Shown: positions 18,716 to 25,018 of the stretch, one piece after another
Numbering within the stretch: the stretch's first letter is position 1
Layout of the letters: each line of letters starts with the position of its first letter
DNA from: an uncultured SAR116 cluster alpha proteobacterium
Lineage (GTDB): Bacteria; Pseudomonadota; Alphaproteobacteria; Puniceispirillales; Puniceispirillaceae
Direction: 5' to 3'
NCBI GenBank assembly: GCA_902632595.1
Contig: CACPDC010000009.1
Coordinates: 1 to 64,000 of the forward strand
Length of the DNA: 64,000 nt
Made by a program: the position numbers and the translations under genes
The notes under the pieces: model-generated
Told to the model about the DNA's origin: nothing
The model's database searches: none
What the model saw: the letters and a program-made list of their open reading frames with translations, nothing else

Positions 18716-19630
18716 ATGGATATTAAATTATTTGTTATTGGTGGTGCCAATGTAGACCTTTATGGCCAAATAGATGCAAAAAATGGAGTATCTGAAGATT
18801 CAAACCCAGGTTCTGTGACCATACATGCTGGAGGTGTTGGCAGAAACATTGCAGAAAATTTAGGATACCTTGGAGCAAATGTAGAATTCATTGGGCATTT
18901 TGGCGGAGACAACTTTGCTATAACATTAAACCAATCACTTCAAAAAGCAGGTGTTTCAACCGCATTTTCTTATAAAAACGCAGACCAAAATAGTGATTTT
19001 TATATAGCAATTCAAAACCAAAAAGGCGAACTTATATCTGCTGTTAATGATATGTATTTAATAGAAAATTTACCAACGAGCTTTTTGAAAAATCAGGAAA
19101 ATATAAAAAAAATAAAAAATGCAGATATGGTTGTTCTGGATGGAAATCTATCTGAAAAAATGCTAACCAACATATTTCGTGTCTATGGAAAAAATTCCGT
19201 AATCGCTGTGGATAGTGTTTCTACCGCTAAAGCCAAACGCTTAATACCTCATTTAGCTAAAATCGATTATCTTAAATGTAACAAAGCAGAAGCAAATATG
19301 CTAATTTCTGAAAATGAAAATTTAAACCTTCAACAAATTACAGAACGGCTAATAAAATTGGGGGTTGGCACTGCTATTATATCTGACTCGCTTGCAGGAT
19401 TTGGTGTGGCTACCGATTACAAATTTCATCATTTTTCTGCAAAAGATATTGAAAGTAGCAATAGCTCTGGTGCAGGAGACGCTCTATTCTCGGGCTTTTT
19501 ATACGCTATTTGTAAGGGCAGAACACCTTTTGAGGCAGCACAGTTTGCTCGTTCAGCAGCAGAAAAAGCACTTGGCTTCAACGGTCCTGTAAACCCGAAA
19601 ATATCAGAATTGAGTAAATTTCTATCATGA
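18716..19630 (+). CDS. psuK: PfkB-family kinase, probable pseudouridine kinase
   Basis: This 304-residue ribokinase-fold enzyme opens with GGANVDLYG and has the sugar-binding HAGGVGRNIAENL stretch (about 37-49) and the C-terminal anion-hole motif SSGAGDALFSGF (about 246-257) with the catalytic Asp. Because its stop overlaps psuG by 4 bp, pseudouridine phosphorylation is the most likely role. It yields pseudouridine 5'-phosphate for the next enzyme. IolC was considered but rejected because of this coupling. Confidence 0.9.
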   Translation: MDIKLFVIGGANVDLYGQIDAKNGVSEDSNPGSVTIHAGGVGRNIAENLGYLGANVEFIGHFGGDNFAITLNQSLQKAGVSTAFSYKNADQNSDFYIAIQNQKGELISAVNDMYLIENLPTSFLKNQENIKKIKNADMVVLDGNLSEKMLTNIFRVYGKNSVIAVDSVSTAKAKRLIPHLAKIDYLKCNKAEANMLISENENLNLQQITERLIKLGVGTAIISDSLAGFGVATDYKFHHFSAKDIESSNSSGAGDALFSGFLYAICKGRTPFEAAQFARSAAEKALGFNGPVNPKISELSKFLS

Positions 19631-20550
19631 CAGAAATAATGTATAACAAAGAAGTCTTGGATGCTGTTCAAGACAAAAAACCGATAGTTGCTCTAGAATC
19701 GACTATAATTTCACATGGCTTACCCTTCCCCAAAAATTATGAGACAGCAGTGTCACTTGAAACAGAAATTCGAGAGCAAGGTGCAATCCCCGCCACAATA
19801 GCTATTATAAATGGGCAAATAAAGGTCGGCTTAGAAAAAGAAGACCTAGAAATTTTGTCAGATCCAGCGTCAAAAGTTGAAAAAATTAGCAGACGAGATA
19901 TACCATCAATCCTTCAAACAAAAGGGCATGGAGCTACAACTGTTGCTGCAACAATGATTATTGCAGCAAGAATGGGTATAAAAGTTTTTGCTACTGGCGG
20001 AATTGGCGGGGTACACCAAGGCGCTGAAACATCTTTTGATATTTCTGCAGATCTCCAGGAATTAGTAAAAACAAGTGTTTGTGTTGTATGTGCTGGTCCA
20101 AAAGCTATTTTAGACCTAAAACTCACTATGGAATATTTAGAAACAAATGGTGTCCCGGTAATTGGATATCAAACACAGGAATTGCCGGCTTTTTGGTCCC
20201 GAACTTCCGGGATATATGGAATTCAGTCTTTTCAGACTGCAACGGATATTGCAGCTTTCCTAAACATTAAATGGCAATTCCCCCTCGAGGGCGGGGTTTT
20301 GGTTACAAACCCTATTTCAGTTTCAGAAGAACTCCCAGAAAAACAAGTTAAACATTGGATTAAAGAGGCTCTGCAGCAGGCAAAATCTAAAAATATAATT
20401 GGTAAAGACATAACTCCTTTTGTTCTGGATTATATAAATATGGCCTCTGAAGGAAAAAGCGTTAACTCAAATATTTCACTTGTGAAAAATAATTCGAAAT
20501 TAGCCTCTGAAATCGCAATTGAAGTCTATAAAAAATTTAAAGATGCTTGA
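19627..20550 (+). CDS. psuG: Pseudouridine-5'-phosphate glycosidase
   Basis: This 307-residue enzyme cleaves pseudouridine 5'-phosphate to uracil and ribose 5-phosphate. Family motifs are visible: VALESTIISHGLPFPKN at about 20-36 with the catalytic-site Glu, and KGHGATTVAATM plus FATGGIGGVHQGAE in the middle. The length is normal. Its ATG overlaps the psuK stop. Together the pair salvages pseudouridine from RNA turnover. No transporter gene is adjacent. The last 14 bp overlap the end of the convergent dioxygenase gene. Confidence 0.95.
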   Translation: MTEIMYNKEVLDAVQDKKPIVALESTIISHGLPFPKNYETAVSLETEIREQGAIPATIAIINGQIKVGLEKEDLEILSDPASKVEKISRRDIPSILQTKGHGATTVAATMIIAARMGIKVFATGGIGGVHQGAETSFDISADLQELVKTSVCVVCAGPKAILDLKLTMEYLETNGVPVIGYQTQELPAFWSRTSGIYGIQSFQTATDIAAFLNIKWQFPLEGGVLVTNPISVSEELPEKQVKHWIKEALQQAKSKNIIGKDITPFVLDYINMASEGKSVNSNISLVKNNSKLASEIAIEVYKKFKDA

Positions 20551-21495: not shown

Positions 21496-23013
21496 TTATA
21501 ATGGTAATGGCAATTGATTAGTTTTAACCAATAACTTTTTTTTTGATTTATTGAATGACTTGCTTCTTAAGCCAGATTTGCGACTTCCGTGCTTATTAGC
21601 AATTTCCTTTGATTTTTTATTATGCTGGCTATTAGTTCGACGAAGATTATATATTAGGCTTGCTGCTTTTTTACGAGCTATTGACTCTTCAATAATTGGA
21701 GAAGGATAGCCTTTTGCTAAATTTGTTTTCCATGGCTCATGAATTTCGTTCATCGGTAATTTGGCAAGTTCAGGCACCCACTTTTTGATGAATGTTCCGT
21801 CAGGATCATGATCCTGACCCTGTTTTATCGGATTATATATTCGAATACTATTTATACCGGTAGTACCTGACTGCATTTGCATCTGGCTAAAATGAATTCC
21901 AGGTTCAAAGTCTACGAATAATGATGCTAAATATGTTGCAGGACGCCTCCAATGCAACCAAAGGTGATAACTGGAAAAACTTACTAACATAGCCCTCATA
22001 CGGAAATTTAGCCAGCCAGTGCTTATTAATGAACGCATACATGCATCAATCATTGGATATCCGGTGTTACCAGTTTTCCAAGCCAAAAAATATTCTTCGT
22101 CAAATTTGTCATTACGCAGATTATTATAGGAGGGGTGCATATTTTCAAATTCAATTCGTGGCTCATCTTCTAACTTTTGAATAAAATGACAATGCCATCT
22201 AAGACGACCTAGAAACGAATTGAGAGCGGATGGCCAATTACCACGCTCCGATTTCTTATAATTTTGAATCTCTATTTTCCGATTTTGTGCTGCCTGAAAT
22301 GTCTCACGCATTGAGATAGTTCCAAAAGCAAGATGAGCTGATATCAGTGAACAGCTTCTATAGGCAGTGGTGGGAGACGACATCTGCTTCGTATAATTCT
22401 CTCCTCTCACATTTAGAAAACTGTCTAGAAGATGTAATCCCTCTAATCGACCTCCTTTAACCAAAACTTGTTTTTTTATCTCATTTTCTTCTTTTGGGTA
22501 GGCGTTTATTTTCTCAGTTGTTTCAGCAATCGGATGTAGTTTTAGAGGCGATTTAAATGAAGTTAAGGACATTTGTGACTGCCAATTTTTAGCCCACCCA
22601 TTCCTGTCCTTAAGGCATCGGATAACCCCATTTTGATTAAATTCAAACCAATTTATACCCTTGGATTTGAACCATTTCTGAACGCTAGTATCACGTTGGT
22701 ATGACCAACCGTTCCAAGTCTCCTGATGGGAAAAAACGCTCTGGATACCGTGGCTACTATGCAACTTATCAAAGATCTCAATCGCATTCCCATTTTTTAT
22801 AATTAGTCTCTGGCCAAGTTGTTTTAATTCGTCGTCTAATTCTTTAAGACTAGCTTTTAAAAATGCATATTTAGCATAACTCATCTCTTCCATATTCCAA
22901 AGAGCTGGCTCAAAAATATACAAGGGTAAAACAATACCATTTTTCGCTGCGTTTACTAGCGCTTCATTGTCGTGAACACGCAGGTCTCTCTTAAACCAGA
23001 GAATATTTATCAT
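21496..23013 (-). CDS. Cryptochrome/deoxyribodipyrimidine photolyase family protein, full length
   Basis: This 505-residue flavoprotein starts with the photolyase N-terminal pattern LWFKRDLRVHDNEAL and has the FAD-binding alpha-helical domain from about 200 on: RWHCHFIQKLEDEPR, TGNTGYPMIDACMRSL, then the RMRAMLVSF segment. The C-terminal tail is long and basic (about 430-505, with HGSRKSG), a feature of a bacterial photolyase/cryptochrome branch. It probably repairs UV-induced pyrimidine dimers with light, or acts as a blue-light sensor. The ATG at 23013 is preferred to a GTG one codon upstream. It is divergent from the two short photolyase-like genes. Confidence 0.93.
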   Translation of the reverse strand: MINILWFKRDLRVHDNEALVNAAKNGIVLPLYIFEPALWNMEEMSYAKYAFLKASLKELDDELKQLGQRLIIKNGNAIEIFDKLHSSHGIQSVFSHQETWNGWSYQRDTSVQKWFKSKGINWFEFNQNGVIRCLKDRNGWAKNWQSQMSLTSFKSPLKLHPIAETTEKINAYPKEENEIKKQVLVKGGRLEGLHLLDSFLNVRGENYTKQMSSPTTAYRSCSLISAHLAFGTISMRETFQAAQNRKIEIQNYKKSERGNWPSALNSFLGRLRWHCHFIQKLEDEPRIEFENMHPSYNNLRNDKFDEEYFLAWKTGNTGYPMIDACMRSLISTGWLNFRMRAMLVSFSSYHLWLHWRRPATYLASLFVDFEPGIHFSQMQMQSGTTGINSIRIYNPIKQGQDHDPDGTFIKKWVPELAKLPMNEIHEPWKTNLAKGYPSPIIEESIARKKAASLIYNLRRTNSQHNKKSKEIANKHGSRKSGLRSKSFNKSKKKLLVKTNQLPLPL

Positions 23014-23167
23014 CACATAGCATTCATATTAGTTAAATTTTTTATCGACTAAAATATAGGTCAATAAAGCAAAATCTGTATTCTTTTTTTAATTTTTTGT
23101 AAAAAAGTTTTTTTCTTACCTAGTTTTCAATTATCACTGAACTACCTGGTGTTTGAGGGAAGAATCA

Positions 23168-23953
23168 ATGAAAAAATTAGTCAAGAATTTTAAGTCTAGG
23201 GACTGTCTTATTGAATATGTCAGAGGACTATCTGAGTGGTCCGAAGGAAATGCATCGCATGTTATCGGTGGAACGAGATCCGCATATGATAAATTAAACC
23301 AAATTGATCCTATAGAATATGGTAAAACTAGAAATTTTGGAAATGGAAAAATAACAAAATTATCTGCTTATATTCATCACGGTATAATAAGTCTTGATGA
23401 GGTAAGAAATTTTGCATTAAAAATTAATTCAGATGTAAAGAGATCCGAGAAATTTATTCAAGAATTAGGCTGGCGTGATTTCTGGCAAAGAATAGCTGTT
23501 AAACACCCGGAATGGGTTTGGAACGATGTTGAGGAATATAAAACAGGTTTTTCGGCCTTTGATTATTCAGAGAATTTACCATCAGATATTTTGGAGGCCA
23601 AAACCGACTCAAGTTGTATTAATTCATTTATAGAGGAGTTAATAGAGACAGGTTATCTGCATAATCATGCACGCATGTATTTAGCAAGTTATATTGTTCA
23701 TTTTAGACGTATTCAATGGCAGTCGGGTGCTTTTTGGTTTTTACAACATCTACTTGATGGAGACGAAGCGAGCAATAATTTTTCCTGGCAATGGGTGGCT
23801 AGCACTTTCAGCAATAAGCCATATATTTTCAATCTAGAGAATGTAGATAAATATTTTCATGGTAAGGTAGATACCTCGCCTCAAAATAACGAAATTCTCC
23901 ATTCAAGTTATGAAGCTTTAATAGATAGATTATTTCCAAATATGATTAGGTAA
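23168..23953 (+). CDS. Stand-alone FAD-binding domain of photolyase/cryptochrome
   Basis: This 261-residue protein matches only the C-terminal helical FAD domain of photolyases: WRDFWQRIAVKHP, HNHARMYLASYIVHF and the flavin-site stretch DGDEASNNFSWQWVAS, ending PYIFN. It lacks the alpha/beta antenna domain that normally precedes it (usual total 450-500 residues). Ribosome binding site GAGGGAAG precedes the ATG at 23168; a TTG 15 bp earlier is less likely. The next gene, 5 bp downstream, appears to encode the missing domain. Short photolyase-like proteins are known in some bacteria. I infer a light-dependent DNA repair or sensing function. Confidence 0.88.
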   Translation: MKKLVKNFKSRDCLIEYVRGLSEWSEGNASHVIGGTRSAYDKLNQIDPIEYGKTRNFGNGKITKLSAYIHHGIISLDEVRNFALKINSDVKRSEKFIQELGWRDFWQRIAVKHPEWVWNDVEEYKTGFSAFDYSENLPSDILEAKTDSSCINSFIEELIETGYLHNHARMYLASYIVHFRRIQWQSGAFWFLQHLLDGDEASNNFSWQWVASTFSNKPYIFNLENVDKYFHGKVDTSPQNNEILHSSYEALIDRLFPNMIR

Positions 23954-23958
23954 TAAGC

Positions 23959-24372
23959 ATGCAATTACTCTACATACATGATAAAGGACTTGGGGACCAT
24001 CATCCTATTTTCTCAAGAATGAATCCTAGTTCCAAAGCGTTATTTATTTGGGATGATGTTTTTTTTAAACGCAGATGTTATTCTCTTAAGCGTCTTGTTT
24101 TTATTTACGAAACTCTATGCTCAATGCCTATAGATATTTATTATGGTGACACAAAAAAAATAATAAAAGAAATTTCACCAGAAAAAATACTTACTCCCTT
24201 TACAACAGACATTCCTATAATGAGTATTATAAATGAGATTTCAGAGCAGTTTGACCTAGAATTTGTTTACCCACGCTCTTTTGCTCAAATTGACGAAAAC
24301 GTCGATTTTATTCGTTTTTTTAAATATTGGAATAAAGCAAAAAAAACAGCTTTTCGCAAAAATACCACTTAA
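23959..24372 (+). CDS. Photolyase N-terminal (alpha/beta) domain-like protein
   Basis: This 137-residue protein follows the FAD-domain gene by 5 bp. It has a Rossmann-like alternation: strand MQLLYIHD, then ALFIWDDVFF, a helix SLKRLVFIYETL, strand IDIYYGDTKKIIKEI, strand KILTPFTTDIP. This matches the order seen in the photolyase antenna domain (value strand, helix, SLP-x-DIYxGD-like strand, then a position that gives threonine-rich loops). I infer it is that domain encoded separately. It is much shorter than a usual 190-residue domain and has a basic tail, so binding of an antenna chromophore is uncertain. Confidence 0.7.
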   Translation: MQLLYIHDKGLGDHHPIFSRMNPSSKALFIWDDVFFKRRCYSLKRLVFIYETLCSMPIDIYYGDTKKIIKEISPEKILTPFTTDIPIMSIINEISEQFDLEFVYPRSFAQIDENVDFIRFFKYWNKAKKTAFRKNTT

Positions 24373-24394
24373 ATAACATCAAGAATGACTAACG

Positions 24395-25018
24395 CTAAAA
24401 AAACCCGCCCTGAAGCCTCAAAAATTCTGAGAGTTCTTCTAGGCCAACACCTCTCTTCATCGAACCAAAAATAAACGGAAGTTCTCCTCTATTTTGCTTA
24501 GTATCTTCTCGCATCTTTTCGAGGTCCACTTCTACATGCTCGGCAAGCTCAATTTTGTTTATAACCAGCATATCAGATTTCATTAATGCCGGACCTTTTT
24601 TTCTTGGAATGTCAGCTCCCATACACACATCGATTACATAAATAGTAAGGTCAACAAGCTCTGGGCTAAATGTTGCAGCTAAATTATCCCCACCTGACTC
24701 TAATAATATCAATTCTAAATCCGGAAAACGACCTTTCAAGTCATCCATCGCAGCTAGATTAACTGATGCATCCTCGCGAATGGCAGTATGAGGGCAGCCA
24801 CCAGTTTCAACACCGTAGATTCTGTCAGATGATAAAGCCTGAGCGCGAACGAGATATTCAGCATCTTCTCGTGTGTATATATCATTGGTAATGACCGCCA
24901 TCGAGATATCTGATGCAAGGCTTTTGCATAGTGCCTCCGTCATACTTGTTTTACCAGCACCCACTGGGCCACCAATACCGACACGCAGTGGTCCATATTT
25001 TAATTTATCTTTTATCAT
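24395..25018 (-). CDS. ureG: Urease accessory GTPase UreG
   Basis: This 207-residue SIMIBI GTPase delivers nickel to urease. The P-loop GPVGAGKTS lies at about 18-26, the metal motif C-P-H is in [13 protein letters not shown], and [17 protein letters not shown] and the NKIEL specificity motif follow. The start overlaps the ureF stop by 4 bp. It is the last gene of the operon. Confidence 0.97.

Follow-up and report, generated by a model that had tools for sequence, protein, structure and literature searches.

The closest described counterparts of the locus studied here are the adjacent open reading frames (ORFs) phr4 and phr5 of marine Synechococcus, of which the first encodes an FAD domain and the second a photolyase domain, i.e., in reversed order (Haney et al. 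2022; PMC9426592). The pair is also present in half of six Cyanobium strains, two Cyanobium strains carry a merged phr6, and the same gene complement is noted for Nostoc punctiforme (PMC9426592). A frameshift fusion of the two ORFs is one of two options that the authors leave open for Synechococcus (PMC9426592). They further describe that a phr4 mutant of Synechococcus survives UV-C 20-30 times less well, with no effect under UV-B, and that phr4/phr5 protects E. coli from UV-C with a non-significant difference between light and dark, and does not protect it from UV-B (PMC9426592). Phr4/5 was suggested to be a (6-4) photolyase from its Fe-S cysteines, which are C169, C254, C257 and C263 in RS9916 Phr4 (PMC9426592). 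The two-gene, FAD-first layout is thus already known, and no further description of the gene pair was recognised among the open-licence papers listed beyond PMC9426592. What is added here is that the pair is widespread in Proteobacteria, that it consists of separate genes in 59 out of 59 testable loci, and that it includes a branch without the cluster cysteines.

The locus lies in a window of 64,000 nucleotides (the whole stretch of DNA analysed) from an uncultured SAR116 cluster alphaproteobacterium (Table 1). The initial annotation of this DNA had described two ORFs of 261 and 137 residues, 5 bp apart and with the FAD domain first, lying divergently from a full-length photolyase. These ORFs, sizes, gap and order were exact, and the divergent photolyase is indeed present. 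The frame of the FAD-domain gene has an alternative TTG start at 23153. Like phr4/phr5, the window thus carries a separate FAD ORF followed by an adjacent photolyase-domain ORF. Conventional class I/III photolyases (E. coli 1dnp, A. nidulans 1tez) share both domain folds and the lesion-site motifs with the window pair, but they are single chains with the antenna domain at the N-terminus. The divergent 506-aa protein is of this conventional type, and is a neighbour rather than a component of the split enzyme. In a promoter scan of 22900-24500, the number of sites was below that of shuffled sequences.

Table 1. Positions of the split photolyase genes and their divergent neighbour in the window.
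Feature	Position	Strand	Description
FAD-domain gene	23168-23953	+	ATG start, 261 aa; photolyase catalytic helical domain without N-terminal antenna domain
Junction	23954-23958	+	5 bp; small gene out of frame with FAD gene (from sequence)
Small-subunit gene	23959-24372	+	ATG start, 137 aa; free-standing photolyase N-domain (antenna-type Rossmann domain)
Full-length photolyase, divergent	21496-23016	-	506 aa; Pfam DNA_photolyase 1.4e-28 and FAD_binding_7 1.4e-64

The FAD-binding helical domain of the photolyase/cryptochrome superfamily is present in the larger protein, as found by Pfam, by a search of PDB sequences and by the predicted fold of a relative. FAD_binding_7 (E 4.3e-23, residues 96-224) is the sole Pfam family matched, and the same scan finds no DNA_photolyase domain in this protein. 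Among PDB sequences, photolyases were matched (best 1tez, E 1.1e-19). In a model of the pair from another SAR116 locus (L045), in which both proteins are joined, residues 1-263 fit 1dnp at Z 17.6, so this relative of the FAD domain has the conventional photolyase fold over its full length. 1tez is the A. nidulans photolyase with bound cyclobutane pyrimidine dimer (CPD). In the alignment, its segments QELAWREF, MHNRCRM and NGGWQW stand opposite QELGWRDF, LHNHARM and NFSWQW of the window protein. Five positions that line the lesion site in CPD photolyases are kept in nearly all split rows of the alignment: E99 and M170 in 94 of the 96, and W102, N166 and W209 in every one. The complete set of CPD-type lesion-site residues (E, W, N, M, W) is present in the window protein. 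W184 is likewise kept in 96 of 96 split rows, and W207, the first tryptophan of the electron-transfer chain, is kept in 82 and replaced by phenylalanine in 14. (6-4) photolyases have histidines at the position of the N/M motif. Because the lesion-site residues of the CPD type are kept, CPD repair is favoured over (6-4) repair, and the window pair probably repairs CPDs, judging from its sequence.

By itself, the small protein of the window matches neither PF00875 nor PF04244, nor any other Pfam or NCBIfam family. Its AF2 model, built on an alignment of 56 sequences, is confident (pLDDT 92.1, pTM 0.79) and consists of five strands alternating with helices. After structural realignment of Foldseek's top 1000 chains, the best 50 listed are all photolyases or cryptochromes (Z 9.2-11.7), and the best match among those listed is E. 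coli 1dnp (Z 11.7, rmsd 4.4, 134 aligned). Foldseek without realignment places phosphopantetheine adenylyltransferases (PPAT) first (E 2.7e-4), with photolyases from rank 9. When the 56 relatives of the small protein are scanned singly, 14 match PF00875 (DNA_photolyase; best E 2.8e-8) and one matches PF04244. Moreover, the small-protein profile aligns with nine conventional photolyases over 80 columns at their N-terminus (prob 91.5, E 8.8e-7). On the basis of the realignment, the PF00875 matches and the profile comparison, a photolyase identity is preferred and PPAT is set aside. The small protein has the photolyase N-domain fold and, with it, the N-terminal-type Rossmann domain of the superfamily, as AF2, realignment, profile and Pfam agree. 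Its description as antenna-domain-like in the initial annotation is thereby confirmed by AF2 fold, structural realignment, profile and Pfam matches in relatives: the comparison with the photolyase N-domain proposed there yields a match, and not a different fold. A PDB sequence search with the small protein alone gave two chance matches, and BLAST against the neighbouring 506-aa photolyase gave no match. With its profile, the PDB yielded weak matches to ribosomal protein L3 and nothing else (best E 0.029), which we take as a chance likeness to the C-terminal motif. This motif, RFFxYW in the C-terminal helix, is the most strongly conserved part of the small protein and is not a known chromophore site.

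The closest named relatives are SAR116-cluster alphaproteobacteria, for example AH-287-O21, with 89% for the small protein. Searching genome contigs with the small-protein profile gave 64 loci. Two of them, from actinomycetes (L091, L092), were left out because their matches are weak and partial and lie in a fused frame. Judging by record titles, the 64 loci derive, among others, from SAR116, Rhodobiaceae, PS1, Rickettsiales, Legionellales, Thiotrichaceae, Obscuribacterales and Chlamydiae. Two metagenome-assembled genome records labelled Rickettsia typhi (L035) and Klebsiella pneumoniae (L048) also carry the pair; these labels are probably misassigned. Phage records and one scan of viral contigs contained no copies of it. 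In three of the 62 remaining loci (L041, L042, L067) the contig ends before the FAD gene, and in all 59 testable ones the FAD gene lies directly upstream as a separate ORF. In 58 of these, a candidate start (ATG, GTG or TTG) falls between -7 and +6 bases of the stop codon of the FAD gene. The exception is L055 (1694-2425), where the FAD frame stops about 25 residues early and the small-gene start lies at +61, owing to either a sequencing error or decay. The reading frame of the small gene is offset from that of the FAD gene in one direction in 33 loci and in the other direction in 24, and the two frames coincide in two (L045, L055). No single conserved shift could fuse all loci, which argues for two polypeptides instead of frameshifting; coupled translation of two products is the simpler explanation. 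Both genes are under purifying selection, with dN 0.061 and dS 0.294 for the FAD gene and dN 0.047 and dS 0.230 for the small gene (window versus locus L029). This selection and the joint recurrence of the two genes in relatives indicate that the pair is more than chance. The gene pair is hence widespread, including in Proteobacteria, and separate throughout the testable loci. The survey of conservation suggested by the initial annotation thus shows a pair conserved far beyond the source genome, and together with the domain matches and the N-domain fold it bears out the split photolyase with the FAD gene first that was proposed there. The two-gene photolyase would then be a widespread enzyme and not a cyanobacterial peculiarity.

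The two genes also occur strictly together. The small gene is present in 22 of 61 genomes of SAR116 relatives, and these 22 are also the ones that match the FAD protein strongly (377-488 bits). In Cyanobacteriota it is present in 34 of 194 genomes, the same 34 having an FAD match of 320-448 bits; a weaker match there (G091; 215 bits, 451-aa frame) comes without the small gene. Similarly, nine of 289 alphaproteobacterial genomes carry the small gene and the same nine an FAD match of 337-478 bits, with two genomes (G000, G015) counted both here and among the relatives. In 20 of the 34 Cyanobacteriota the genes are linked, with the small gene at most 2 kb downstream in the same orientation. In the other 14 they are unlinked: the small gene lies on a different contig in seven, and in the remaining seven it shares the contig with the FAD gene at 0.48-4.9 Mb (linear distances, uncorrected for circularity). 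Since unlinked genes are nonetheless present in the same genomes, the proteins can work in trans, and of all observations this strict co-occurrence points most strongly to an enzyme of two subunits assembling in trans. Parts that the same genomes retain even at megabase distances most likely act as two proteins. As a stand-in for the complex, L045, in which a lone in-frame TAA separates the two genes, was read through as one artificial chain of 407 residues. The model reaches pLDDT 86.8 and pTM 0.85, with residues 264-282 around the junction below 50; the underlying alignment is poor at the beginning of the small domain. By our own estimate, two unplaced domains of such sizes would give a clearly lower pTM, and the predicted docking of the small domain on the FAD domain in the joined chain therefore looks confident as far as pTM tells.

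Phr4, known here by the published description of RS9916, has four Fe-S cysteines, whereas the FAD protein of the window has a cysteine at only the first of these positions. The FAD proteins of 30 of the 34 paired Cyanobacteriota were read (G154, G244, G204 and G254 were left out). All four cysteines are seen in the alignment in 28 of them, and G107 has them in a frame cut by a later stop; an Obscuribacterales genome (G061) lacks them. They recur in Deinococcus (L025) and in three alphaproteobacteria (L157-L159), and their spacing is exactly 85, 3 and 6, as published, in 29 of 33 four-cysteine rows (G070 counted twice). The other 64 split rows lack the four cysteines, although L002 (a cut copy of the window's protein) and L055 end too early to be judged fully. 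Taken alone, the first position is a cysteine in 42 of 67 non-cyanobacterial split rows, the three four-cysteine rows and L002 included, and in several NewPHL-like rows (see below). This position probably has another use, since it is common outside the four-cysteine rows.

A tree of 54 FAD domains groups the four-cysteine rows in one clade (100/99), and the window's protein falls outside it. The sampled cyanobacterial pairs, which show the published spacing, join the window's group and thus belong to the same FAD subfamily. With the NewPHL-like rows as root, the four-cysteine clade is nested among cluster-free rows. None of 200 bootstrap trees (0%) places the cluster-free rows on one side of a branch, but an AU test does not reject their grouping (p 0.104). 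A quick tree with distant outgroups gives the same picture with weak support. As far as the aligned sequences tell, a large branch of split photolyases does without Fe-S cysteines, and this makes the case for regarding such enzymes as (6-4) photolyases weaker. The published Phr6 of Cyanobium and the protein on a Deinococcus plasmid (L025, 472 aa) have the FAD domain before an antenna-type domain as well, but as one chain with four cysteines, in contrast to the two chains and three missing cysteines of the window. On another contig of the source genome (C22, L004), a PhrB-like, photolyase-related protein of 498 aa lacks most of the C-terminal cysteine motif characteristic of Fe-S (6-4) photolyases. 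This SAR116 genome may accordingly lack the cluster in both of its potential Fe-S photolyase types.

NewPHL, or Phr7, reportedly described by Emmerich et al. in 2020, is said to be a single chain with an FAD domain followed by a C-terminal Z-domain. It resembles the window pair in having the FAD domain first, in its related FAD domain and in lacking Fe-S cysteines, but it is one chain of about 360-460 aa, whereas the window has two separate ORFs. An hhalign comparison gave no match between the NewPHL tail and the small-protein profile (prob 0.7, E 0.08). Rows are called NewPHL-like here by length and domain order, and not by published sequences. Among the 39 relatives without the pair, 25 have a weaker FAD match whose span and frame length fit this single-chain, FAD-first type (364-460 aa; 322 for the frame in G011). 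None of the 22 pair-bearing relatives has one (Fisher p 2.3e-7 by genome, ignoring kinship), the calls being made from the match listing and not sequence by sequence, and several genomes being incomplete. Counted by genus over the 61 SAR116 relatives, six have the pair, eight a NewPHL-like match, three neither and none both (p 0.007). This exclusion fits a functional replacement. It is conceivable, with a chance somewhat short of even, that the pair is a cluster-free photolyase obligately made of two subunits, the second of which acts in trans and is required for repair, and that it replaces single-chain NewPHL in SAR116, perhaps for CPD repair in single-stranded DNA, so that the two are mutually exclusive. 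If true, the pair would offer a naturally split photolyase, and what the antenna domain contributes could be tested simply by omitting the small protein.

As to a light-harvesting cofactor, CofH (F0/8-HDF synthase) was found in three of 11 pair-bearing genomes (21 searched, several incomplete) and is above the cut-off in the source genome. Given this low count, 8-HDF is unsupported as an obligatory antenna. Genome G000 has CofH (485 bits) and an adjacent CofG-like frame (C1:58444-60701) and, by these genes, probably makes F0/8-HDF; most of the relatives searched give no such sign.

We consider it likely that the two genes encode two subunits of one inverted, FAD-first photolyase of the Phr4/Phr5 group, within the branch without Fe-S cysteines and probably directed at CPDs. 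The first subunit would bind FAD and the UV lesion and perform light-driven electron transfer, while the second, a former antenna domain, would dock on it as a separate polypeptide and may hold a light-harvesting cofactor. The two products would arise by translational coupling or by re-initiation where the stop and start codons overlap or adjoin, without a frameshift. Domain identity, fold, conservation, strict co-occurrence, the varying frame relation and the missing cysteines were computed, and the physical complex, its activity, lesion type and cofactor are inferred from them. Several observations weigh against a two-subunit photolyase: Foldseek alone ranks PPAT above photolyases for the small protein, W207 is a phenylalanine in 14 of 96 split rows, and the joined model is a single artificial chain. 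In addition, the UV-C protection that phr4/phr5 gives E. coli did not differ significantly between light and dark, and UV-B revealed no effect of either the phr4 mutation or phr4/5 in E. coli (PMC9426592). A two-subunit photolyase lacking an antenna function, in which the small protein acts as a structural partner, closing or stabilising the FAD subunit without a second chromophore, is possible but rather doubtful. The C-terminal domain of NewPHL has such a role, and both the scarcity of CofH and the position of the best-kept motif away from any known chromophore site would suit such a partner. Its fold, however, is that of the antenna domain, and MTHF, flavins or ribolumazine, which most bacteria make, remain candidate chromophores. 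With either role of the small protein, a natural two-part photolyase allows the purpose of the antenna domain to be asked directly.

The lesion may also be another one. The group shared with Phr4/5 by layout and tree would speak for a (6-4) photolyase, but three of the four cysteines are missing from the window's branch, and its N166-x-x-R169-M170 motif is of the CPD type, with histidines in (6-4) enzymes; we regard this assignment as unlikely. A cryptochrome-like light sensor without repair function seems quite improbable: the FAD fold is common to cryptochromes, but the lesion-site residues are almost invariant, and disruption of phr4 reduced UV-C survival of Synechococcus 20-30 times (PMC9426592). 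Ribosomal frameshifting that fuses both ORFs into one FAD-first chain could draw on the short junction and on the single-chain forms of the Deinococcus plasmid and the published phr6 (PMC9426592). It is very improbable in view of the candidate starts at 58 of 59 junctions, the differing shifts needed (33, 24 and two in frame) and the unlinked genes of 14 of 34 Cyanobacteriota. Decay of a broken photolyase gene, finally, would explain why the halves are separate and why the FAD frames of L055 and of the cyanobacterial L102 stop early. It is hardly credible, because the halves stand in the reverse of the usual order, the layout is identical across phyla, and dN is well below dS in the pairs compared.

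Regarding the neighbourhood of this split photolyase, a photolyase like the divergent neighbour adjoins the pair in six of seven testable loci of the genus (L029-L034, not L037) and is also found near it in L040, L050 and L064, while L038 and L085 have a PhrB-like photolyase nearby. In 51 of 62 loci (L029-L090), no second photolyase was found within the flank examined, whose reach beyond the small gene is 2.5 kb at the longest and shorter in some loci. Pfam recognised no known regulator among six window proteins scanned. The dedicated light-response module that the initial annotation considered likely is therefore unsupported. At 18716-20550 of the window, a gene for a PfkB kinase overlaps one of the Indigoidine_A family (pseudouridine glycosidase-type) by 4 bp, and the two probably form a pseudouridine breakdown pair. 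In Persicobacter (L026:2267-5033), a single-chain, FAD-first photolyase gene overlaps a conventional photolyase gene by 8 bp, and both are like the neighbouring genes of the window.
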